20,513 bases of DNA from a virus: IMG/VR virus record IMGVR_UViG_3300048010_000163, positions 1 to 20,513 of that record; one strand, written 5' to 3'. The notes under the pieces were generated by a model that saw only the letters and a program-made list of their open reading frames with translations, searched no databases and had not been told where the DNA came from. Numbering within the stretch: the first letter of the stretch is position 1; each line of letters begins with the position of its first letter. The position numbers and the translations under genes are program-made. Positions 4,154 through 18,617 of the stretch are shown one piece after another.

Positions 4154-4765
4154 CTATTTATATCCTAACTCACTTAGTGACTTGCCCCATTTTTCCATTT
4201 CAGTTGCAGGAAATCTATGAGCATAATATGTGTAGTCATTTTGCCATACGAAATGATGTTCGGTAATTTTTTGTAAAAACATTTCCCATCGTATCTGAAT
4301 TGTCCCATCAGGATCTATATATGTTGGCTTATTATTATTGTCTATAATTACATTACCTGGTACACCATCAGCATGAAAAAATATCGGTTCACAGCAATGT
4401 ATATCTCTTTTGCCATGAAAATCAAAGTATCTTTTGTATAATGCTGTTCTATGTGTAAAACAAATATACCATAAATTATCAACGGTTGTTGTTGGAGTTT
4501 TAGCATAGTCGTTAAACATCATACCTTCAACTTTGTCCATAACAATTACACCATCATCAAAACTGTGTACTTTTACAAAACACGGATTGTCCTTTTGAAA
4601 CCTTTCATAGCGTTCAAAATTAAAAGCATCTGGTGCAGTCTTTTTAATGATGTAGTTACCATCTTCATAGACTTCTCTATTATCTTTTTTGTGTATTAAT
4701 TTAATTTGTCTAGTTCCTATGAGCTCTGAGCAAGTAGTGATTAAACCACTCGGTATTATGTTCAT
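4154..4765 (-). CDS. Kinase-fold (APH/protein-kinase-like) protein, paralogue 1
   Basis: Encodes 203 residues. Visible kinase-like landmarks in order: a lysine strand (EDGNYIIKKT, matching the ATP-anchoring beta-3 lysine), a hinge-like segment (GVIVMDKVEG), a catalytic-loop motif HADGVPGNVII that fits the HxDxxxxN pattern of aminoglycoside phosphotransferase-like kinases, and a metal-binding YIDPDG in place of the usual IDW/DFG. It is clearly paralogous to the gene immediately upstream (shared IKLI, VYEDGNYI, VIVMDK, IDPD). Substrate unknown: small molecule, protein or nucleic acid are all possible. No good Shine-Dalgarno precedes the ATG at 4765; it overlaps the upstream gene by 56 nt and the first 20 residues do not align with the paralogue, so the start is uncertain. 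Confidence 0.85.
   Translation of the reverse strand: MNIIPSGLITTCSELIGTRQIKLIHKKDNREVYEDGNYIIKKTAPDAFNFERYERFQKDNPCFVKVHSFDDGVIVMDKVEGMMFNDYAKTPTTTVDNLWYICFTHRTALYKRYFDFHGKRDIHCCEPIFFHADGVPGNVIIDNNNKPTYIDPDGTIQIRWEMFLQKITEHHFVWQNDYTYYAHRFPATEMEKWGKSLSELGYK
4155..4162 (-). promoter_or_regulatory. T4-type late promoter box TATAAATA next to the ATG
   Basis: The minus strand reads ATATAAATAGTATTATGG: an exact late box, 5 nt, then the ATG at 4149. It overlaps the TAG stop (4154-4156) of the kinase-like gene, so the five-gene cassette upstream and the structural genes downstream are separated by this promoter. Confidence 0.78.
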
Positions 4766-5270
4766 TTATCTTTAAGATAAATCGATCCCATGTCTCAAAT
4801 CTAAAACTGTCTGGATCTATAAACATAGGTTTATCTCCTTGCATGATTAAATTGGCATGCTTTGCATCACCGTTAAAGAATATATGTTGATTTGGATCTA
4901 TATAATCAGACCCTGCAAAGTCAAGAAAGTTTTTTACTGTTTCATTTCTAAACTTAACACACACATTCCATAATTGATCTTTGGTAGCGTATTGATGAAA
5001 TTCGTCCCATGTATGTCCTTCAATTTTATCCATTACAATAACATCGTCTTCATAACTGTATACTTTTACACACCAAGGATATTCTAGTTGAAAACGCTTG
5101 TAAGTTTCAAAGTCAAACGCATTGCGAGATCTAAACTCATTGGGCAAAGTTTTTTTGACTATATAGTTGCCATCTTCATAAACTTCTTCTTTATGTGTTT
5201 TTCGTATAAGTTTAATTGGGCGTCCATCTATGTCTAGGAACCAATTTAATTTTATCCCTAGTTGCGACAT
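4710..5270 (-). CDS. Kinase-fold (APH/protein-kinase-like) protein, paralogue 2
   Basis: Encodes 186 residues from the ATG at 5270 (MSQLGIKLNW); an upstream ATG at 5318 is possible but would deepen the overlap with the preceding gene. Landmarks: EDGNYIVKKT (ATP-anchoring lysine), DVIVMDKIEG (hinge), FFNGDAKHANLI (catalytic loop with Asp and Asn kept but the leading His changed to Asn) and MFIDPDSF (metal-binding Asp). It is shorter than typical APH enzymes (about 260 residues), so the C-lobe is minimal. Tandem duplication with the downstream gene is obvious. The early part of its reading frame lies inside the 3' end of the ligase-like gene, so expression is probably coupled. Function inferred only from fold and context. 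Confidence 0.85.
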   Translation of the reverse strand: MSQLGIKLNWFLDIDGRPIKLIRKTHKEEVYEDGNYIVKKTLPNEFRSRNAFDFETYKRFQLEYPWCVKVYSYEDDVIVMDKIEGHTWDEFHQYATKDQLWNVCVKFRNETVKNFLDFAGSDYIDPNQHIFFNGDAKHANLIMQGDKPMFIDPDSFRFETWDRFILKINEHNTEWFNHYLLRAHRN

Positions 5271-6285
5271 AGCCTTCACCGCCACGTTCACCGCCTGTTG
5301 TAGCAGTAACATCAGCACCTGAGTTATCTAATTGATCAATAAGATCATTTTTCATATTTTGTATTTTAACAACAAGATCCAATATAGCATTAAGACCTTT
5401 ATCATCTCCTGCCATAAGTTTTGCTTGCTGTCCTTGGCTGACCTTGCTGGTTTTTAGCCAATCATAAAATCCTGTCCTGAGTTGGTCTAACTTACCTGCT
5501 TTGGTCATTTGGTTAACATAGTTATAGAGTATTGCATCTTTTCTACTCAGTCCCTGTTCCGGCTTTAACCAATTGTCTATTATTTGTGCGTTCGCATTTG
5601 CCGTACTAACTATATCCTGAACTGCACTTGTATCAACTTTGGGTTGATGTGTTACATATGTTTGCCCTAGTACAACTACCGCATTACTATTGATACTCTT
5701 TGTGTCTTTGATTGGAGTACCTGTCTTATCTCCAAATGCATCATGGTATGTGTGTACCACTACACCCAATGTACTGCCCGCTATACGCTTGCCTAAAGCA
5801 CTTGCAGGGTCAACAGTGTATGTAACTTTGTTAGGTGTAAACTGTAAGCCCTCTTGTGAACTTGTTACGGGCTTGCGTGGAGTATACAGTAAGTCACCGT
5901 ATACATATCCCTTCATGTCAGCTGGTGTGTTTGCTTCTAGTATCTCAAACACTCCTGCCATTTCTCCAGCAAAGTCTTTACGCCAATCTTCGCCTTTGCC
6001 TGTATTCATAATAAAGTCTTGTAGTTGTCCACTACTGGTTGTTTTGTTTTTGCCCCAACCATTTTTACCAGTCATTACAAATTGACCGTCTGGTTCTCTT
6101 CCCCAAAATATAGTTGGATTGCCGTCCCACTTGATGCTAACATCTTTGGAATCTTGTCCTAGTCGTGTTAGTATCTCTGCGGCTTTGAGTGCGCCTTTGC
6201 TACCTTCAAATGTAACTAGGTCTTCTAAATGATTGTACTCTCTACCTTTAGTGGTAGCTTCAGTTAGAAATTGATTTGCTCTCAT
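5212..6285 (-). CDS. Predicted covalent nucleotidyltransferase (ligase/capping-enzyme-like motifs)
   Basis: Encodes 357 residues. Motifs in the order expected for the DNA/RNA ligase and mRNA-capping superfamily: motif I KWDG at 52-55 (KxDG, Lys52 the candidate adenylated residue), a YVYGDLLYT block at about 127-135 resembling motif III, VVVHTY at 175-180 resembling motif IIIa, GEGYVA at 336-341 resembling motif IV (Glu337), and KIKLVP at 345-350 resembling motif V. A roughly 150-residue, partly helical insertion separates IIIa and IV, unlike classical ligases. From memory this resembles a family of unknown function found in marine T4-like phages; the enzymatic assignment is my inference. The ATG overlaps the TAA of the pol-beta gene (TAATG), implying coupled expression with another nucleotidyltransferase. 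Confidence 0.85.
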   Translation of the reverse strand: MRANQFLTEATTKGREYNHLEDLVTFEGSKGALKAAEILTRLGQDSKDVSIKWDGNPTIFWGREPDGQFVMTGKNGWGKNKTTSSGQLQDFIMNTGKGEDWRKDFAGEMAGVFEILEANTPADMKGYVYGDLLYTPRKPVTSSQEGLQFTPNKVTYTVDPASALGKRIAGSTLGVVVHTYHDAFGDKTGTPIKDTKSINSNAVVVLGQTYVTHQPKVDTSAVQDIVSTANANAQIIDNWLKPEQGLSRKDAILYNYVNQMTKAGKLDQLRTGFYDWLKTSKVSQGQQAKLMAGDDKGLNAILDLVVKIQNMKNDLIDQLDNSGADVTATTGGERGGEGYVATRDKIKLVPRHRWTPN

Positions 6286-7070
6286 TACTCAAGCTCTTTC
6301 CAATTTGGATCACTACGCAAATCTGCTAGCAATGCATCACCTTTTTCTTTACCCAATGCCGCCACAATAGCTTCGACACTGCCTATATCTTTTCCTGAGG
6401 CATTAGGGCCTAATAATGTTCTTGCTATCTCATCGATATTACTAGATATTAAATCAGCTTTCTTACCATTTGCATCTCTGCTAAACAATCCTTGGTAAGG
6501 TGACCATAACATGTTTTGGTCCTTTGCTAATTTAGCAAGTGTAATCATTTTGTTTACACCTTTGAATTTGCTACCTTGTGGAATACTGTGAGTATGAAAC
6601 TTTGCCGCATTCTCTGCATTAGGTACAACCATAATATCTATTTGGTGTGTTTGCCCACCATCGGGTACTTCAACATGTACACTGGTACCACTTTGCCCTG
6701 TATTAAATCCTGCTAGGTCAAATACTTGTCTTAGCTTTTTTCTAATAACTGGATCTTTTTGATCTTCCATATTAAAGTGTTGCTTTAGTTGATCCATATC
6801 AACTATCATATCTAAGTCACCGCTTATTTTTCCTTTGGTAGGTGTTGCACCACTGCCAATTGGAATAGCCTTGCTTCCTGTCTTAGCAAGCACACTGTTG
6901 ATTTGTTTCATTAGTGCTGGAATCTTAGCGTGGTCAAAGCTCACACTATCCGGAAAGATATTGCCGCCTTCTTTGAGTTTTGCTAGTAAACTCTTGCCTT
7001 TGCGGCGATTTTTGCGACTACCACGCTTTAAACGTTTTTTAGTACCGCTTAGTATTTCTTTGATCTTCAT
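6285..7070 (-). CDS. Pol-beta superfamily nucleotidyltransferase
   Basis: Encodes 261 residues. A basic N-terminus (residues 9-32, many K and R) could bind nucleic acid. The catalytic signature is clear: IGSGATPTKGKISGDLDMIVD (72-91, quoted in part: GS at 72-73, Asp85 and Asp87), then a third acidic residue in HQIDIMVV (Asp145). This matches hG[GS]...DhD...hDh of the pol-beta fold (tRNA CCA-adding, poly(A), 2'-5' OAS and antitoxin-type NTases). It is shorter than CCA-adding enzymes and lacks an obvious RNA-binding tail, so the substrate (RNA 3' end, protein or small molecule) is unknown. It overlaps the upstream gene by 32 nt and the downstream one by TAATG, placing it in one operon with the KxDG protein and the kinase-like pair. 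Confidence 0.88.
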   Translation of the reverse strand: MKIKEILSGTKKRLKRGSRKNRRKGKSLLAKLKEGGNIFPDSVSFDHAKIPALMKQINSVLAKTGSKAIPIGSGATPTKGKISGDLDMIVDMDQLKQHFNMEDQKDPVIRKKLRQVFDLAGFNTGQSGTSVHVEVPDGGQTHQIDIMVVPNAENAAKFHTHSIPQGSKFKGVNKMITLAKLAKDQNMLWSPYQGLFSRDANGKKADLISSNIDEIARTLLGPNASGKDIGSVEAIVAALGKEKGDALLADLRSDPNWKELE

Positions 7071-7558: not shown

Positions 7559-7979
7559 AAAAATATTCAAAGTTCTGACAATCCTTATGTATACCAATGT
7601 TAATAGCACCATTGCGTTGATGGAATCTAGTTGCTGTTTGAGTAAGTGGACTTAGTGTAACATATCGTTCTACCATAGGTTTTTGAGACTTTACTAAATC
7701 CAGAGCCTGCATAATAATTTCTCTACCAGCACCTTTATTGTAACTCCATACAGTATAAAATACTGCTACGTCTAAACCCGGAGTACTCATGTCTTTTTCA
7801 CATTTTGGTACTTCGTCTGTGTATGCTACACAAAGCACTGCATCAATATCTCCGTTGTTATCCAACACAAATACTTCTCTACCGTAAGAAGTACGCCAGT
7901 CGGCTTTGATGTGTGGTCTAACTGGATCATTTCGCAAATGTTTTTTAAGTTCTTTTCTAGTTGCTATTCTGATCTTCAT
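7557..7979 (-). CDS. GNAT-like acyltransferase-fold protein
   Basis: Encodes 140 residues. The layout fits the GNAT fold: beta-rich N-terminal part (REVFVLDNNGDIDAVLCVAY), a pyrophosphate-loop-like segment WSYNKGAGREII at 78-89, then YVTLSPLTQTATRFHQRNGA (106-125), resembling the C-terminal GNAT helix in which a residue near the acyl-CoA thiol is often found. Canonical Q/RxxGxG/A is replaced by NKGAGR, so CoA binding is likely but not certain. The start overlaps the helicase stop (TAATG), and it ends the primase-helicase operon, suggesting modification of, or a structural role with, the replisome. From memory, similar genes adjoin gene 41 in other marine T4-like phages. Substrate unknown. Confidence 0.8.
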   Translation of the reverse strand: MKIRIATRKELKKHLRNDPVRPHIKADWRTSYGREVFVLDNNGDIDAVLCVAYTDEVPKCEKDMSTPGLDVAVFYTVWSYNKGAGREIIMQALDLVKSQKPMVERYVTLSPLTQTATRFHQRNGAINIGIHKDCQNFEYF

Positions 7980-9370
7980 TAATCTGCTTTCCTCAATAAG
8001 CTCTTTAGTCTATCTGTTGCATCTACTTGTAGACTTGCATCCATATTATTTTCTGTAACACTTACGCCTGCCGGTGCTACACTGCTTTTTGTTTTTAATT
8101 TTTGATAAATGCTAGTTGTACTTGTATCTTCTTGTTCGTCCTCGTCTAAGTCTTCAATACGCAAACTATCTATGTTAAATTTAAGATCCAGCTTTTGCCC
8201 AACACCACTACTACTTCTGGTTTTCATAAACTGTATCTGCACTCGACCACGCTCACGCATTGCCCTACTGCTAAAAATACCAATCAAATTGTCTGCTGTA
8301 TTAATCTTACTTATACCACCTGCAATGTGGCTATGATCAAATTCAATCTCATCAACTGCACTACGATTCAACTGCGAAGCAGTAACAAACAATATGCCCA
8401 ATTCAATTGCTAGATTACGCAATTCTTCACTAACAAATTTGTCTTTAATAAATTGGTCATTTGGATTTACTTTTACTGTAATTGGCATCATAAGATCCAA
8501 GTAGTCAACTAATAGTGCATCTACCTTAATGTTGTTTTGTATTTGGAACTCTTTGAGATATGCTCTAATATCATTTACTGTACAACCATTTTTCATTTGT
8601 ACAATCTGTAAACCGCCTGCCTTTTTACTTGCCATTTTAACACGCAACTCTACATCACTTGCATTTTTCATTACGTCTTTGGTACCCATACCAGTAAGCA
8701 TAGCATCCAGTCTCATACTACACAGTTCTTCACTAAGTTCTAAACTAATGTATACAACGTTCTTTCCTTGCAATGCCCAGTTCAGTGCCAAGTTTTGCAT
8801 AAACAAACTCTTACCACTACCACTACCTCCTGCAAAGATATTAAGCTCACCTGTATTAAATCCACCATACAAAAACTTATCAAATGTCATCCAGCCTGTA
8901 CTGTTTTGACCTCTACTGTCTTTGATTGTTTGTATACGTCCTGCTGGATCTTCCCAATAGTTTGTACCAAAGTCTTTAGCTAATCCAATTTCTGTTGCGG
9001 CTTTGATAATACCTTCTACTGTGCCATACTCTTTGTTTTCAAGTTTATCAGCACTTTGTAGTATTGCCGCTTCTAGTGCTTTGTGTCTGCAAAACTGTTC
9101 AAAGTTATCCATAAACCAGTTTTTGTGTTCGTCTGTCATTGTTGCTCGAACATCACTTGCGCCAATATTGCCCACTGCATTTACTTGTTCTAGCATGGGG
9201 ACATCACTATATTCTTCAACATGTTTCTTTATAAAGTCAACAGTATCTCTGAATTGCCTATCAAAGTAACTGCTTTCTAGTATAGCATTACACCGCACAA
9301 AAAGATCCTTGTCTGCTAACAAGAAATCAATGTACAGCTTCTGTAGTTCTGTGCTATAATCTTCGCTCAT
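7979..9370 (-). CDS. 41: Replicative DNA helicase, T4 gp41-like (DnaB family)
   Basis: Encodes 463 residues, the usual size for gp41-type helicases. An N-terminal helical domain (about 1-150) is followed by a RecA-like core: Walker A GGSGSGKS at 181-188, ISLELSEE after it (DnaB-type catalytic Glu region), Walker B VDALLVDYLDLM at about 283-294, and TASQLNR (sensor/H3-like motif) further on. It unwinds DNA 5'-3' as a hexamer and works with the gp61-type primase, here encoded two genes upstream. The C-terminal 60 residues are polar and probably flexible. The ATG overlaps the TGA of the small membrane-protein gene (ATGA), so it is translationally coupled. Confidence 0.97.
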   Translation of the reverse strand: MSEDYSTELQKLYIDFLLADKDLFVRCNAILESSYFDRQFRDTVDFIKKHVEEYSDVPMLEQVNAVGNIGASDVRATMTDEHKNWFMDNFEQFCRHKALEAAILQSADKLENKEYGTVEGIIKAATEIGLAKDFGTNYWEDPAGRIQTIKDSRGQNSTGWMTFDKFLYGGFNTGELNIFAGGSGSGKSLFMQNLALNWALQGKNVVYISLELSEELCSMRLDAMLTGMGTKDVMKNASDVELRVKMASKKAGGLQIVQMKNGCTVNDIRAYLKEFQIQNNIKVDALLVDYLDLMMPITVKVNPNDQFIKDKFVSEELRNLAIELGILFVTASQLNRSAVDEIEFDHSHIAGGISKINTADNLIGIFSSRAMRERGRVQIQFMKTRSSSGVGQKLDLKFNIDSLRIEDLDEDEQEDTSTTSIYQKLKTKSSVAPAGVSVTENNMDASLQVDATDRLKSLLRKAD

Positions 9371-9578: not shown

Positions 9579-10598
9579 CTATCTACATCTTGCTTTTGCA
9601 AGTATTTTAATTTTTGTTGCATTTGTTTCTATACTTTCTAACACACTCTTTACAGTAAACAATCTACCATAACGCACGACTGCATCACTGGCATCTTTTA
9701 TATCATCTTCCCATTCAGGAAAACTTACTGCCCAGCCACGTTTTATTGCTACGTTCACAGTATCCATACCACTTTTATCAAAGTCTGGAAGAAGCACTAT
9801 TTGTTTATCTAACTCTTCTATTATTTTACATTGTATATTGTTTGGTGTATTACCTGCTAGTGCCACACCTCCCATTTGTAGTGCATCAAACTGTCCTTCA
9901 GTTACAATTATAGTATCATGTGTTTTTTGTGCATCCAAGTTGTATACAAAGTTCTTGGGCATATTATTATAATACTTGGGCATTGCATCTGGTCTATTGT
10001 CAGGACACCATCTTGCAGTATATCCAACTATGTTACCTTTGTAATAAAAAGGTAGTATTATCCTATTTGCAAAATGCATATGAGGTGACCAGTACCAATG
10101 TTCATGAAAGTCCATACCTCTTTTCATAACATATGTACAAGCCAATGCAAGTTTATCTAGTTCTTTTTTATCCAAGTCGTCTATAGGATATTCACCAATA
10201 CGATAACTGTTTGGTGGAAGCTCTATAGTGGGCCAATCAATTTGTACTTTTTGTTCTTTTGCTTTTTCAATATACTGTCCAGCAATGTCGCCTGCTTCTT
10301 CTTCACGCAATAGTTCTAAGTTTACTCTTTGTATATCAGCGGGGTCTGCGCCAAATGTAGTTAATAGTTCTTGCAGTTTACCACCAATACGTCTACTATC
10401 ACTCCACCCAGTTTTAAATCCACAGTTAAAACAGTTGTATTGGAAATGATCATCCTCAAAACGTATACCGCCTCTGCCACGCTTGTCCGGGCTGTGTCCA
10501 CGCTTACTGCACATTGGACAATTACCACTGATCCATCCGCTAGGAGTTTGTTTCCAGCCAGCAGGCATTTGCTGGCGAATAAAGTCTAAAACTATCAT
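9579..10598 (-). CDS. 61: DNA primase, T4 gp61-like (zinc domain plus TOPRIM)
   Basis: Encodes 339 residues, matching gp61-type primases (about 340). The N-terminal zinc-binding domain has C27-x2-C30 and C56-x2-C59 with intervening basic residues. The TOPRIM catalytic core is visible: IIVTEGQFDALQ (Glu234) and VLLPDFDKSG (Asp272, Asp274). It makes RNA primers for lagging-strand synthesis with the helicase encoded downstream. A candidate early promoter (TTGACA-17-TAATAT) lies inside the 3' end of the upstream virion gene and puts the predicted transcription start on the ATG itself; no Shine-Dalgarno is seen, so a leaderless message is possible. Confidence 0.96.
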   Translation of the reverse strand: MIVLDFIRQQMPAGWKQTPSGWISGNCPMCSKRGHSPDKRGRGGIRFEDDHFQYNCFNCGFKTGWSDSRRIGGKLQELLTTFGADPADIQRVNLELLREEEAGDIAGQYIEKAKEQKVQIDWPTIELPPNSYRIGEYPIDDLDKKELDKLALACTYVMKRGMDFHEHWYWSPHMHFANRIILPFYYKGNIVGYTARWCPDNRPDAMPKYYNNMPKNFVYNLDAQKTHDTIIVTEGQFDALQMGGVALAGNTPNNIQCKIIEELDKQIVLLPDFDKSGMDTVNVAIKRGWAVSFPEWEDDIKDASDAVVRYGRLFTVKSVLESIETNATKIKILAKARCR

Positions 10599-11423: not shown

Positions 11424-11807
11424 ATGATGAACAACATTCCTAAGAAATATCAGGATCTGCTAGATGAATTTCCATTTCTAACACTTATTAAGTATGGCGG
11501 AAATGAATATGTGGGCATTATCCAGAATATGGATAATAACCTAGCTAGTATGTACAATTTTGAAAATATAAAGAATGTAGCTGATAAACGTGAATTTTTA
11601 GAAATTGGTGAAGAATGGTGGTGGGGTACCAATAGAATGATACCTATTAACATTATCTTCAAAACAAATTTTGAAAAATTTAGAAGTTGCCTGCTTACAT
11701 TTAGTATCAAAGATTTTGAAGTACTTCACGGTCCTACAATCAGTTTAAATAACATAATTCAGAAAAGAGTTAAGAGACGTAATATACAATTAGTTCGCAG
11801 AATGTAA
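11424..11807 (+). CDS. Conserved hypothetical protein, the only well-supported plus-strand gene
   Basis: Encodes 127 residues (the start may be either of two adjacent ATGs, 11424 or 11427). The sequence is clearly protein-like: FPFLTLIKYGGNEYVGIIQN forms a strand-rich N-terminus, then GEEWWWGTNRMIPINI, and a basic C-terminus (KRVKRRNIQLVRRM). From memory, proteins with this EWWW...NR.IPIN signature occur in marine T4-like phages without known function. No Shine-Dalgarno is evident. Its last 18 nt overlap tail-to-tail with the DnaE-like gene, and it diverges from the virion gene, so it is a single-gene unit in opposite orientation. A small regulator or virion-associated protein are equally possible. 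Confidence 0.85.
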   Translation: MMNNIPKKYQDLLDEFPFLTLIKYGGNEYVGIIQNMDNNLASMYNFENIKNVADKREFLEIGEEWWWGTNRMIPINIIFKTNFEKFRSCLLTFSIKDFEVLHGPTISLNNIIQKRVKRRNIQLVRRM

Positions 11808-12365
11808 TTGTTCACATAACAAATTCATGTGTACAACTACAACCATTGCGTAACTAATTGCGTGGGCTTTCTTAAAGTAATAAGCCTTGTTATCGTTTAG
11901 TGGTTTTGTCCACACTTCTTTCATTATCGTTGGCCACCCTTTGTCCTGTAGATGGCGTTTCGCTGGTCTTATAATCGCCAGTGTCGCGGCTAAATGCTCT
12001 ACCGAGGTAGGCTTCAATTGTTTTAATAGTTTGTCGTGCCCGCTTAGATGAAACACTTTGTCTGCGAAGTCTTTGTGCTCCAGAAGTTCCCATATTGGTT
12101 CCCTTTCCATTAATTCTCTGAGATGATCGTCATCCTTTACATCTTTGTATATGCTAACGTTCAACAGATCCAGTTTAAAGAATCCATGATCGTCAGCTTC
12201 AGTATGTTCAACCGTACAGATGTCAGTAAATGGATTACTTGGTACTCTATGAAAATATACACCTGTGTTGTGCTTGCGTTGTTTTAATTTGGCTGGCGTA
12301 TGTTTGAACAATCCTAAAACTTGTGTTCTATCAGCAAAGTCTATGTCAATATCAGGTAGTCCCAT
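11790..12365 (-). CDS. Compressed DnaE-like (DNA polymerase III alpha) palm protein
   Basis: Encodes 191 residues from the ATG at 12365, with AGGAG 7 nt upstream; a TTG one codon earlier is the alternative. Four blocks typical of bacterial DnaE appear in order: PDIDIDF (4-10, the catalytic D-x-D of the C-family polymerase palm), FFKLDLLNV (62-70, equivalent to the third catalytic Asp in DnaE), LKPTSVEHLAATLAIIRPA (117-135, like the conserved region leading into RPGP) and KKAHAISYAMV (165-175, like KSHAxAYA). Full DnaE is about 1,100 residues with PHP, fingers and OB domains absent here, so it is either a minimal relative, a decoy/regulator or a nuclease-like domain. It lies last in the uvsW operon and overlaps the zinc-finger protein gene. 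Confidence 0.82.
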   Translation of the reverse strand: MGLPDIDIDFADRTQVLGLFKHTPAKLKQRKHNTGVYFHRVPSNPFTDICTVEHTEADDHGFFKLDLLNVSIYKDVKDDDHLRELMEREPIWELLEHKDFADKVFHLSGHDKLLKQLKPTSVEHLAATLAIIRPAKRHLQDKGWPTIMKEVWTKPLNDNKAYYFKKAHAISYAMVVVVHMNLLCEQLHSAN

Positions 12366-13059
12366 CAATCATCTCCTGTACAAAATTAGCATCATGTGGA
12401 TTGAGTTGACGCTTCTTACTCCAATAATCTGCATCAAGACACTTTGCAATTCTAGCAACACATTCGCCTGGCATGCTTTCAATAGCACGTTCAGCTCGTC
12501 TACTACTTATAATGATCCATGGACTTATCTTGCCCATTTCAACCCAGTCAGCGATTATATACCCGCTAGCTGTTTCCCAAAAATTTTCAAAGTATTCTGT
12601 TTGTGCGGCATGTTCTACAAATCTTTCTAATGCACGTTCTACACTTTCACGTTTACAATGATCCTGCACAAACAACAAATACATTTTATCAGTGGGCCAA
12701 TCTTTTAGTTTGACTTTGTTTTTTATTAACCAACGTGTAAACTGCTCTTGGTCAATTACTTTGGTGTTCAAACAATATGCACCAAACTTTACAAAAGCTG
12801 TATAATATTGACTGTCCACAAAATCTTTATACTCTTTGGGCTTGCTTTGCATTTCAATTCTATAAAATAAATCATAGCTACTAAACCCAACCAAGACATC
12901 TTGATTATCTTTTGCTTGCCAGCGTCTTTTCTTTTCACAACTGTGGGCTAGTAGAGTGCTTTCTTTTTGAAAACTCTTCTTACAATATTCACAAGTAAAT
13001 TTGCCTTTTGTCACTTGTATGCTTCCTAGTTGTGTTACCAATTGTTCTGCTGTGGTCAT
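12352..13059 (-). CDS. Zinc-finger protein (C2HC type) of unknown function
   Basis: Encodes 235 residues. The N-terminal region has a compact finger: C23-x2-C26-x12-H39-x-C41 followed by a basic KKRRW, typical of nucleic-acid or protein contact. The rest is helical and aromatic-rich (YDLFYRIEMQSKPKEYKDFV, WLIKNKVKLKDWP), with no enzymatic motif. The start overlaps the stop of the upstream gene (ATG at 13059, stop at 13056) and its own 3' end overlaps the DnaE-like gene by 14 nt, so the two products are probably made in proportion and may interact. A role in replication or recombination is inferred from context. Confidence 0.83.
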   Translation of the reverse strand: MTTAEQLVTQLGSIQVTKGKFTCEYCKKSFQKESTLLAHSCEKKRRWQAKDNQDVLVGFSSYDLFYRIEMQSKPKEYKDFVDSQYYTAFVKFGAYCLNTKVIDQEQFTRWLIKNKVKLKDWPTDKMYLLFVQDHCKRESVERALERFVEHAAQTEYFENFWETASGYIIADWVEMGKISPWIIISSRRAERAIESMPGECVARIAKCLDADYWSKKRQLNPHDANFVQEMIDGTT

Positions 13060-13824: not shown

Positions 13825-14321
13825 AAATCCTCCGTGTTTAATACATCTGGTATTTTGTTTGTTTCTTTAACAAAGAATATACAATCACTGTTGGGTTTAT
13901 CTGTAAGTGGAACAGTAAGTATATGTCCAAATTTAAGTTTAGGAAAATACCATTTTACTTCTTGATAAATGTTTATAATTTCTATCTCAGTGAACGATGG
14001 AAGAAACCCAGTAAGTGGATTAAAAACAAAGGCTTTAAATCCTCTGTCATTTAAACTTGTTACTGGTAATACTTCAGGGTCACCTACTGTAGGATCACAA
14101 ACAATAAGACTCCAATCTAACGGAACCTTAACTTGATATCGTCCTACTTGCAACACAGCCGCAGGACTACTAAAACTTTCTAAAAAGACCAAAGGTACAA
14201 AAATATAATCCGCTTCCTTAGGATTGCTATAGTCTAATACACAATATCTGATATCTTCTATTTCTTCGGGCACCATATCCAAATCATATGATTGGTTTTC
14301 TACAGTTAATATCTTCGTCAT
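13818..14321 (-). CDS. Conserved hypothetical protein downstream of uvsW
   Basis: Encodes 167 residues, a mixed alpha/beta soluble protein without signal peptide or TM. A well-ordered central core reads RYQVKVPLDWSLIVCDPTVG, then PVTSLNDRGFKAFVFNPLTG (about 61-108). From memory this core resembles a family conserved but unassigned in marine T4-like phages. The start overlaps the UvsW stop (ATGA), so it is translationally coupled with the helicase, and its 3' end overlaps the 31-residue microgene. Function unknown; involvement in recombination or replication control is inferred only from location. Confidence 0.85.
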   Translation of the reverse strand: MTKILTVENQSYDLDMVPEEIEDIRYCVLDYSNPKEADYIFVPLVFLESFSSPAAVLQVGRYQVKVPLDWSLIVCDPTVGDPEVLPVTSLNDRGFKAFVFNPLTGFLPSFTEIEIINIYQEVKWYFPKLKFGHILTVPLTDKPNSDCIFFVKETNKIPDVLNTEDLW

Positions 14322-15772
14322 TTATAATCTACCTTCTCAATATGAAAGGGATACTTGGCTTCTCGATAAAATTTCTTTCGCTCAGTCAAATGTCTCTTAC
14401 TAAATTTTGCACTACTGGTTATATCCCATATTTGTACATGGTCTTTATCCTGTGCTTTTCTTATTCCTCTTCCTATACTTTGTATAACTCTGACAAAACT
14501 TTTGCCAGGCTCAAGAAGCACAAGATTAAATATGCGAGGAATGTTAATACCGACAGCCGCAACTCCGTATGTTGCCACAATGATTTTATTGTTTGTATCG
14601 CTGATTTCGTCATACTCTTCTTTTCTATTTTTACTTTTCATACTACCACTTACAAACACAGTATCTTCACCTAAACGTTCTACAAGTCCTTCGCCTGCCT
14701 TAATACGGTCCACTAATACAAGTGTATTACCACTTTCGCTGAAACGTTGTATAATAGTTGCCATATAATCTAAACGTTCTTTATTCGTAGTTAGATATGT
14801 TAGTTCGCTTTGATAATCTCTATATGCTACATCTTCTTGTAACTGGATAACGTTTACATCACAGTTTGCAAGTACACCCATGTCTTGTAGTTCATGTGCT
14901 GATAGTGCATTTACAACTTCACCTAAACTTATCTCTAAACTTAAACGTTCGTGATCTGCTTTGGGTATTGTACCTGTTAGCCCCCAACGAATTGGAATAT
15001 TGCTGAATGCACCAGTTAGCAGTTTCTTTAATACGTCTGCTTTAGCTTGGTGTACTTCATCAACCATAACACATACAACACCCTCCGCAAAATCGTGTAA
15101 CCCACTGTCGCTCAGTCCGTCTCTGAATCTTTTCTCTAGAACATTTAAACTCTGCCAAGTACATATGGTATGAGTTTTACCCAACTCTTTTCTATCACCA
15201 AAATAGACTCCTACATCAAGTCCCAAATTTACATAATCAGTCTCAGTTTGCGTTACCAAGTCTTTATTGGGTACTATGACTATCGTTCGACCATAGGGTT
15301 CACACTTGTAACTCAGTGCCGCGGTAATAAGTGTTTTACCTGCACCAGTTGCTATTTCTTGTAAACAGTGTGGCGTTTCCAAGAATTGATTTATAACTGA
15401 AACTTGATAGTCACGCAATACTATAGGTTCACCAGCGGCTGGATGTTTTTTGGGCCAGACCCTGTCTCGGAACAAATCTTCAGTTACTAAACCAAATTGA
15501 AAACTATGTGGTTCTCTTTCGTCCTCTATATCAATATGATATCCTTCTTCTTCGAGTACGGGGAGGATATGAGGCAAACAATTTACAAATGTCGTGCCAC
15601 CCATGGTAAAAAATCCTACACATCCGTCCCATCTTCCTAGCTTGTATGCAGGAACATGATAGGCGTAGGGCAAAAAGAACTTTAACTTCTTTTCGAGTTT
15701 ACGACGAGTAGTCAAGGCCAAACCTTCAAACTTACAGTTGACCTCGTCTTTGAGAATCAGTTTTGTTTTCAT
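14318..15772 (-). CDS. uvsW: UvsW-like recombination/branch-migration helicase (SF2)
   Basis: Encodes 484 residues, as in T4 UvsW (about 500). The N-terminal domain (1-110) with WDG resembles the UvsW DNA-binding domain. SF2 motifs follow: LRDYQ (119-123), Walker A ATGAGKT (141-147), DEVH box (238-241), LTGT (265-268), and QSIGRGIR (431-438, motif VI with the arginine finger). UvsW unwinds branched DNA and R-loops and helps switch from origin-dependent to recombination-dependent replication in T4. A strong promoter (TTGACA-17-TATTAT) ends 6 nt upstream of the ATG with no Shine-Dalgarno between, so the mRNA may be leaderless. It heads a six-gene coupled operon that runs to the DnaE-like gene at 11790. 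Confidence 0.96.
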   Translation of the reverse strand: MKTKLILKDEVNCKFEGLALTTRRKLEKKLKFFLPYAYHVPAYKLGRWDGCVGFFTMGGTTFVNCLPHILPVLEEEGYHIDIEDEREPHSFQFGLVTEDLFRDRVWPKKHPAAGEPIVLRDYQVSVINQFLETPHCLQEIATGAGKTLITAALSYKCEPYGRTIVIVPNKDLVTQTETDYVNLGLDVGVYFGDRKELGKTHTICTWQSLNVLEKRFRDGLSDSGLHDFAEGVVCVMVDEVHQAKADVLKKLLTGAFSNIPIRWGLTGTIPKADHERLSLEISLGEVVNALSAHELQDMGVLANCDVNVIQLQEDVAYRDYQSELTYLTTNKERLDYMATIIQRFSESGNTLVLVDRIKAGEGLVERLGEDTVFVSGSMKSKNRKEEYDEISDTNNKIIVATYGVAAVGINIPRIFNLVLLEPGKSFVRVIQSIGRGIRKAQDKDHVQIWDITSSAKFSKRHLTERKKFYREAKYPFHIEKVDYK

Positions 15773-16206: not shown

Positions 16207-16803
16207 TTATCTTTCCCTATAATCATAAATCAAGTTTGCACTAAGGCACATCCTAGTACTGTCTGTGGTATTTTGCTCAACACCATGTTCCAACCAACTT
16301 GGAAATAACAAAAGTTTTCTTTCCTCTGGCTGTATTTTATATCTACTGCCCAAAAATTCTGTTGTGGCTGTAATCTTTGCTGGTGTAGGACTCATTACAT
16401 AAAAATGTCCATCTTCGCCATTGGTTGAAAGATAGTATGCAATGCTAATACTACTAGATCCGTGTGAATGCTGTTCTGCATAGTCACCTTTATAGTATCT
16501 GGTTATCCAACTCTGTCTAAAAAAATTACCAAATGCTTGTCCAGTGTGTTGACAATAAGCACCGCAATGGTGTCCAAGTTCTTCGTTGAATTCTGTTAAT
16601 TCATATTCGCTTATAACATCACCGTGGAAGTCTGGGTCACCATGTCGTAAACTAACATTCATGTCATGAGCTTTATTGGATAAAGGAACCTTTCCCCATT
16701 GCATATCTTTAATTTTTTCTAAAGTTTTGTTATGAGTTTCTTCACTCATGTATCCAATATAAACAGGTGTGGGAAATAATTCTACAGTTTCTCCTAATTG
16801 CAT
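16207..16803 (-). CDS. 2OG-Fe(II) oxygenase-like protein 1
   Basis: Encodes 198 residues. The double-stranded beta-helix is suggested by YYKGDYAEQHSHGSSSISIAYYL (His112 and/or His114 of the metal-binding H-x-H/D), a later His173 in SWLEHGVEQN, and Arg184 (the 2-oxoglutarate-binding R) in TRMCLSANLIY. The usual H-x-D is replaced by H-S-H, so the exact metal ligands are uncertain. Family members hydroxylate proteins or small molecules; T4-like marine phages often carry several. Its transcription is likely separate: a terminator lies just upstream and a one-mismatch late-type box (TATAAGTA at 16821-16828) precedes it. Substrate unknown. Confidence 0.85.
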   Translation of the reverse strand: MQLGETVELFPTPVYIGYMSEETHNKTLEKIKDMQWGKVPLSNKAHDMNVSLRHGDPDFHGDVISEYELTEFNEELGHHCGAYCQHTGQAFGNFFRQSWITRYYKGDYAEQHSHGSSSISIAYYLSTNGEDGHFYVMSPTPAKITATTEFLGSRYKIQPEERKLLLFPSWLEHGVEQNTTDSTRMCLSANLIYDYRER

Positions 16804-18062: not shown

Positions 18063-18617
18063 TTAGGAAAAAACTGCATTAATTATTGTTCTAAAACCCA
18101 CTGCTTCATAATTAGGGTGTACTGCTTTGTGAGGCATACGACTGTGAAATAATACTATTCGACCAGGTACATATTCACTACAGTATTCAATATCTTTCAA
18201 ATCTGGAGTTTTAAAAATAGTTTGTCCATCCCAATCTGGATCCCATTTTAAATTTGGATAAAATAACATACTAATTGCATTTGGTTGCATAGCATCAGCA
18301 TGGTATCTGTACATTTCTCTGCCGGTATGCAAATTACACCAGGAACGATGATGTTTTCTTTCACCAAGATGTTTTTGTACATGTTTCCAGTTAGGGTGTC
18401 TTTCTAAACCAAAGTAGTCCCAATCTTGTTTTTTGAAACTGTTAGACAAAACACTTTGACTTTTAAATTCAGTTACTTGACTATCCCATTGGGTCTTAAA
18501 ACTATATGGTAGTTCATACAGTTGATTCATCATTATTGATCTATCATTAAAGTTAAACAAGTCATCAATGATGACCAACTTTAATCCAGACTTTGTATCT
18601 ATTATTTGTTCTTTCAT
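18063..18617 (-). CDS. 2OG-Fe(II) oxygenase-like protein 2
   Basis: Encodes 184 residues. The iron-binding signature is clear: YHAD (His106, Asp108), a second histidine in SRMPHKAVHP (probably His163), and Arg176 in GFRTIIN as the candidate 2-oxoglutarate ligand. The strand pattern between (AISMLFYPNLKWDPDWDGQT) fits a prolyl-hydroxylase-like jelly roll. It has a canonical H-x-D, unlike the other oxygenase in the window, so the two are distinct enzymes. Its ATG overlaps the TGA of the upstream gene (ATGA). Marine T4-like phages commonly carry such enzymes, with unknown substrates; protein hydroxylation is possible. Confidence 0.9.
   Translation of the reverse strand: MKEQIIDTKSGLKLVIIDDLFNFNDRSIMMNQLYELPYSFKTQWDSQVTEFKSQSVLSNSFKKQDWDYFGLERHPNWKHVQKHLGERKHHRSWCNLHTGREMYRYHADAMQPNAISMLFYPNLKWDPDWDGQTIFKTPDLKDIEYCSEYVPGRIVLFHSRMPHKAVHPNYEAVGFRTIINAVFS

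Follow-up and report, generated by a model that had tools for sequence, protein, structure and literature searches.

The window protein, a 191-residue product encoded within the 20,513-nucleotide stretch of viral DNA analysed here (the window), is most probably the catalytic, C-terminal chain of a minimised DNA polymerase III alpha (Pol III alpha) of the DnaE type that consists of two subunits and belongs to T4-like jumbo phages. The computed support consists of homology, fold, catalytic residues, the exact split, co-occurrence of both halves, purifying selection and placement in replication clusters. A nucleotidyl-transfer site assembled from two chains is strongly suggested; physical assembly, catalysis, a DNA substrate and a role as second polymerase are inferred. 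A split and minimised Pol III alpha was described by Iyer et al. in 2021 for the 'group 2.2' T4-like jumbo phages (PMC7824862), and an earlier reading of the window from its sequence alone, which called a C-family palm in such a phage unexpected, was too strong because this description already existed; the occurrence of a C-family protein beside a B-family polymerase, to which that reading had drawn attention, is seen in relatives. The kind of enzyme is therefore known since 2021, and the exact break, the tiling of the halves, their gene clusters and the selection acting on them are measured here. A literature search found no published experiment on either half.

The C-subunit gene and its family

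The gene of the C-terminal subunit (C) runs on the minus strand from an ATG at 12365 to a stop codon at 11792-11790. The sequence-only reading had noted a frame with four motif blocks in DnaE order, giving no strand; frame and blocks are confirmed on the minus strand, and the opposite (plus) strand holds stops throughout 11790-12365. The gene and its motifs are:

11790..12365, minus strand: predicted C-terminal (catalytic) subunit of a split minimal Pol III alpha (phrog_11778, 5.9e-61; AF2 pLDDT 88.4)
12336..12356, minus strand: PDIDIDF, residues 4-10, with the catalytic D5 and D7 and the DnaE-type D9 (invariant in 36/36 and 73/73)
12156..12182, minus strand: FFKLDLLNV, residues 62-70, with K64 and D66 (both invariant)
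11961..12017, minus strand: LKP...RPA, residues 117-135, finger domain block (P119, R133 and P134 invariant; profile-search alignment to Mtb DnaE1)
11847..11873, minus strand: KKAHAISYA, residues 165-173, finger helix (NKSHAxxYA in DnaE; H168 and Y172 invariant)

The protein starts with MGLPDIDIDF, and the GS motif is absent from the chain. In a PHROG profile search it matches phrog_11778 ('DNA polymerase') with 5.9e-61 over positions 8-195 of 197. Matches to full-length phage DnaE families (phrog_405, 1.8e-10; phrog_12219, 5.6e-5) are, at the level of sequence profiles, weak but clear. Pfam and NCBIfam return finger or DnaE matches that are all below threshold, which may be why annotators often label the protein 'hypothetical'; sequence searches of the PDB with the window protein are alone too weak. 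Chance is excluded as the source of the motif set by the family matches, the 63 phage records and the low dN/dS described below. The window protein is a C-family palm with fingers, of the DnaE type, and the C-family palm proposed earlier is borne out by the phrog matches and by a predicted fold with a Z of 9.4 to Taq alpha.

The second half and the split point

The earlier suggestion that the protein might be a complete minimal polymerase by itself is not supported: a second, distant gene encodes the GS motif for the triphosphate, together with the beginning of the palm. A PF07733 search of four relatives finds one separate gene in each, distant from C, whose match is confined to the opening stretch of the palm profile. 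The encoded subunit (N) has about 170-180 aa and an invariant GxGRGS motif. The 'truncated' 172-aa alpha subunit of the CBB paper (PMC5259590) is, by size and annotation, the N half. The gene is absent from the 20.5-kb window record, itself a fragment.

The split is precise. In nearly all of 80 loci N ends in ...EFLK/R, normally 35 residues from GxGRGS and in a few cases up to 6 more. The start of C lies at ...PDIDIDF, usually straight after the start Met (80 IMG/VR loci). The counterparts of these two ends are about 8 residues apart in DnaE, so that N and C together cover the catalytic core and do not overlap. A fused N+C gene was found in none of 160 fetched loci, and two back-translated junction scans, which covered some codons and a single motif spelling, gave 0 matches compared to 32 for the matching DnaE control. 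An intein at this RaK2-type split was considered and rejected, as there is no room for it: N stops after EFLK/R and C begins with MPDIDIDF.

One position of N departs from DnaE. The arginine of the DnaE FERFLN motif, which sits near the nucleotide, is matched in N by a near-invariant Glu (52/53; e.g. L005:1195-1725), and the substrate (nucleotide) contacts therefore probably differ from those of DnaE.

Predicted structures and missing domains

An alignment to DnaE and PolC structures, proposed earlier as a check, was run with the AF2 model of C (pLDDT 88.4). Over model residues 1-190, each of the 15 top-ranking PDB entries is a Pol III alpha or a PolC (Z 5.8-9.4). The top match is Taq alpha (3e0d; Z 9.4, rmsd 3.5, 185 aa, residues 459-838), and the model also matches PolC (Z 9.1, residues 969-1296) and E. 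coli alpha (2hnh; Z 8.7, residues 398-784); the next unrelated PDB entry has a Z of 3.0. Foldseek E-values are weak for this model (best 4.7e-3). A predicted-model Z of about 9 is moderate, yet well over the unrelated entries and consistent with the sequence evidence, and the model places the three catalytic aspartates within a Pol III alpha fold. For N, the AF2 model of a relative's subunit (pLDDT 90.7) aligns with residues 79-173 to Mtb 307-413 (Z 10.3), and to residues 281-393 of E. coli alpha (Z 9.6). The modelled halves tile E. coli alpha as 279-393 (N) and 398-784 (C), without overlap. The first 78 residues of N are uncovered by any solved-fold match in the list obtained.

The statement that true DnaE places these motifs over hundreds of residues is right. 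The spacing from DxDxD to KxD is 59 in C versus 164 in a true DnaE (taken from a Gordonia genome), and the spacing from RP to KSHA is about 33 versus about 117 in the same protein. The first of these deletions corresponds, by position, to the thumb, located around residues 470-537 in mycobacterial numbering (PMC12641269). The RRAMGKK finger motif (RRAMG) is likewise absent from C in the comparison with the Gordonia DnaE. Missing from the 191-aa protein are the PHP, thumb, HhH, OB and C-terminal domains, of which PHP and (HhH)2 are nearly universal in cellular C-family members (PMC3919608).

Conservation and selection

In an alignment of 36 members, reaching down to 34% identity with the window protein, D5, D7, D9, K64, D66, P119, R133, P134, K136, H168 and Y172 are invariant, and the C-terminal tail is short and variable. 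Identical positions are invariant in 73 IMG/VR members of the family, which were fetched by motif patterns and are hence biased to motif-bearing members; the phage set obtained by tblastn involved no motif pattern, and those of its 63 members that were aligned, about a dozen, agree. Loss of the aspartate motif in most relatives, which the sequence-only reading had named as speaking against its proposal, is not what is found in either alignment.

Profile and structure alignment, together with PMC3919608, relates D5, D7, D9 and D66 to E. coli D401, D403, D405 and D555, respectively. Three of these aspartates are absolutely conserved across the C-family, and the fourth is kept in DnaE and is Asn in PolC (PMC3919608). 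The fourth (D9) is present, and the family of C is therefore DnaE-like. Counting along the motif, D12-R13 of the window protein equal D431-R432 of Mtb DnaE1, a pair that lines its template groove (PMC12641269). The dN/dS is about 0.09, with values of 0.09-0.12 against close relatives and 0.08-0.13 in two clades, indicative of purifying selection on the C gene.

Distribution and co-occurrence

A tblastn search finds C encoded in 63 phage records at >=80% of its length, and all matches listed are large phages similar to RaK2, 121Q, CBB, PA5oct, Atu_ph07, Phosso, SCTP-2 or XacN1, or pieces thereof. At least 434 IMG/VR stretches encode the C half. The nearest named phage is Sinorhizobium phage Phosso (52% identity), and one IMG/VR contig reaches 90%. 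A cellular origin of the split form was considered and rejected: a scan of cellular genomes with C gives ordinary DnaE genes and one MAG contig with phage gene order. This contig (L200), binned as Candidatus Pacearchaeota, carries the order uvsW - polymerase subunit - phrog_11637 - primase and is probably a misbinned phage contig.

All of the named phage genomes tested (11/11) harbor one C, one N and a B-family polymerase (PolB). The earlier assumption that a T4-type phage uses a B-family polymerase holds for these relatives; a PolB is also reported in the RaK2 paper (PMC3622015), and no ORF of this kind was noticed in the 20.5-kb window fragment. Among long IMG/VR contigs chosen for N, C is present in 10/12. 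The exceptions are a 117-kb contig, which lacks the helicase too, and the 348.7-kb contig G009, which looked exceptional, ends at the helicase gene and stops just short of the C position. Contigs chosen for C contain N in 2/5 cases; the other 3 are also without PolB, as expected for fragments. Of the C-bearing phage records listed, 58/60 are also within the first 60 N-bearing records, the remaining two being Vibrio phage 2.275.O, which has N, and a 109-kb partial record. A stand-alone DnaQ-like exonuclease was tried as an obligatory partner. It is over the cut-off in 9/11 named phages and in 1/7 long IMG/VR contigs, and is therefore not universal.

Gene neighbourhood

The genes surrounding C in the window are:

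11424..11807, plus strand: convergent, conserved ORF overlapping the 3' end of the subunit gene (phrog_11637; same orientation in 70/70 loci with sequence there)
9579..10598, minus strand: DNA primase (T4 gp61 type), downstream (phrog_47, 5e-34; 40/40 loci)
7979..9370, minus strand: replicative helicase (DnaB/T4 gp41 type), downstream (phrog_19, 7.6e-72; 40/40 loci)
12352..13059, minus strand: zinc-finger-like ORF directly upstream, overlapping the subunit start (phrog_11058, 8.4e-49; weak C2H2 match)
14318..15772, minus strand: UvsW-like helicase, upstream in the cluster (phrog_16, 4.6e-76; upstream in 34/40 loci)

The order of C, convergent phrog_11637, primase gp61 and helicase gp41 is found in 40/40 loci with enough flanking sequence, and the window keeps this gene order of its relatives. 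Downstream of N, a short conserved ORF and a GroES-like gene are found in 59/59 loci, and the clamp loader gp44 in 54/59. Both halves are placed in replication gene clusters; we found no description of the C and N clusters in the literature.

Proposed mechanism and alternatives

In the proposed mechanism, C would contribute a two-metal site made up of D5, D7 and D66, along with K64 and the helices of the fingers. N, encoded elsewhere in the genome and outside this window, would add the initial helices of the palm and hold the triphosphate with its GxGRGS loop. N and C would associate non-covalently at the loop that joins FERFLN and ..PDIDIDF in DnaE, forming a single nucleotidyl-transfer site, and the pair would act as a second polymerase (in repair, gap filling or on one fork strand) beside the B-family replicase. 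Since thumb, PHP, HhH and OB are lacking, other proteins would have to hold the primer-template and provide processivity, for example the primase-helicase and clamp-loader proteins encoded beside C and N. The fully specified arrangement, a thumb-less two-chain C-family polymerase with its site in trans, with C coupled to the primase-helicase and N to the clamp loader, serving as second replicase beside the B-family polymerase, is offered as a tentative and rather unlikely possibility. If active, the enzyme would rank among the smallest C-family enzymes that use a template, its site being built from two polypeptides; it would reveal which parts of the bacterial replicase catalysis truly needs, and many T4-like jumbo phages would possess two unrelated DNA polymerases.

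The pair might instead transfer nucleotides without being a template-directed DNA polymerase; such a nucleotidyltransferase would have kept the metal and triphosphate site and lost the DNA-holding parts. It could, for example, tail ends, sense nucleotides, or regulate the B-family polymerase or the primase as one of their subunits. The invariant metal and triphosphate residues in the absence of thumb, HhH, OB and RRAMGKK are in line with this reading, as are the PolB already present in the phage and the replacement of the FERFLN arginine by Glu. However, the finger blocks LKP..RPA and KKAHAxSYA and the template-groove residues (D12-R13) are mostly kept, and both genes lie within replication clusters; we regard a nucleotidyltransferase as somewhat improbable, if worth serious attention. 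That the 191-aa chain is an active polymerase by itself, with its three catalytic aspartates and finger motifs on one polypeptide, is very unlikely given that it lacks the GS motif, that the GS-bearing half is a separate, co-occurring gene, and that the model spans just E. coli residues 398-784.

Replicase fragments can titrate their partners, and C mimics part of the host Pol III alpha, as the earlier proposal of a decoy for the host clamp or tau would require. A decoy or inhibitor binding the clamp, tau or another part of the replisome is nevertheless unsupported and highly improbable: the clamp-binding (C-terminal OB/CTD) and tau-binding regions of DnaE are absent, the C-terminal tail is short and variable, conservation is concentrated on the catalytic residues, which are kept, and N co-occurs. 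The large deletions relative to DnaE could also be those of a decaying remnant of a host-derived dnaE. This is extremely improbable and already contradicted by purifying selection (dN/dS about 0.09) and by aspartates that stay invariant, with the rest of the active site, in very divergent phages; the gene order, moreover, is identical in 40/40 loci. A two-subunit, minimised Pol III alpha with C as its catalytic subunit is the reading we prefer.

Relation to other split polymerases

The window protein belongs to the same family as the group 2.2 split Pol III alpha of RaK2, Atu_ph07 and relatives (phrog_11778; PMC7824862). That system comprises an N-terminal NTP-binding and a C-terminal Mg- and template-binding protein encoded by distant genes, with a B-family polymerase alongside (PMC7824862), and the window protein is a further member, known from a 20.5-kb fragment. 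It resembles bacterial DnaE in its fold, its finger motifs and its palm aspartates, among them the fourth Asp that is specific to DnaE (E. coli D405); unlike bacterial DnaE, C has no PHP, thumb, RRAMGKK, HhH, OB or C-terminal domain, and the GS motif is located on the other polypeptide.

A split DnaE also occurs in Cbastvirus phages (Tenacibaculum phage Larrie; Cellulophaga phages phiST, phi19:2 and phi13:1), in which it is spread across adjacent genes. The break lies at the same DnaE junction (FERFLN/PDIDxDF), the first gene covering PF07733 positions 3-98 and the following one positions 100-260. In contrast to the jumbo-phage pair, the Cbastvirus DnaE is full-length, with PHP, thumb, RRAMGKK and HhH, its halves are adjacent, and extra residues are found at the break. 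It looks like a second, independent break, and the split at the same junction is new here. In Larrie (L220:2646-6226) and phiST (L223:922-4522) about 50 extra residues end gene 1 and about 18 start gene 2; no Pfam or NCBIfam match to an intein was found in the Cbastvirus halves, and the extra residues are beta-rich by eye. Bacteroides phage DAC23 (L224:887-4720) has an unsplit DnaE of 1277 aa in which about 60 residues are inserted in frame at this junction, and the site is therefore suggested to tolerate both insertion and breakage. In Microbacterium phage Krampus (L222:1974-5325) gene 56 encodes the PHP domain of DnaE, and the adjacent gene 57 encodes its polymerase core.

The split DnaE of cyanobacteria, which involves a split intein, is similar in that two genes give rise to one replicative C-family polymerase. 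There the DnaE chain is broken at another position and rejoined by protein splicing, whereas the RaK2-type halves have no space for intein sequence.

Other open reading frames of the window

The ORF at 6285-7070 (minus strand) shows a nucleotidyltransferase-looking pattern (GSGA...GDLDMIVD...QIDIMVV), has no PHROG or meaningful Pfam match, and adjoins a DUF6267 ORF (5212-6285). The ORFs at 4154-4765 and 4710-5318 (minus strand) are overlapping tandem paralogues that share the motifs YEDGNYI.KKT and IDPD; they are without convincing family match and kinase-like by eye. The ORFs at 16207-16803 and 18063-18617 (minus strand), the second below the Pfam cut-off, are putative 2OG-Fe(II) oxygenases that occur together in one replication-gene neighbourhood.
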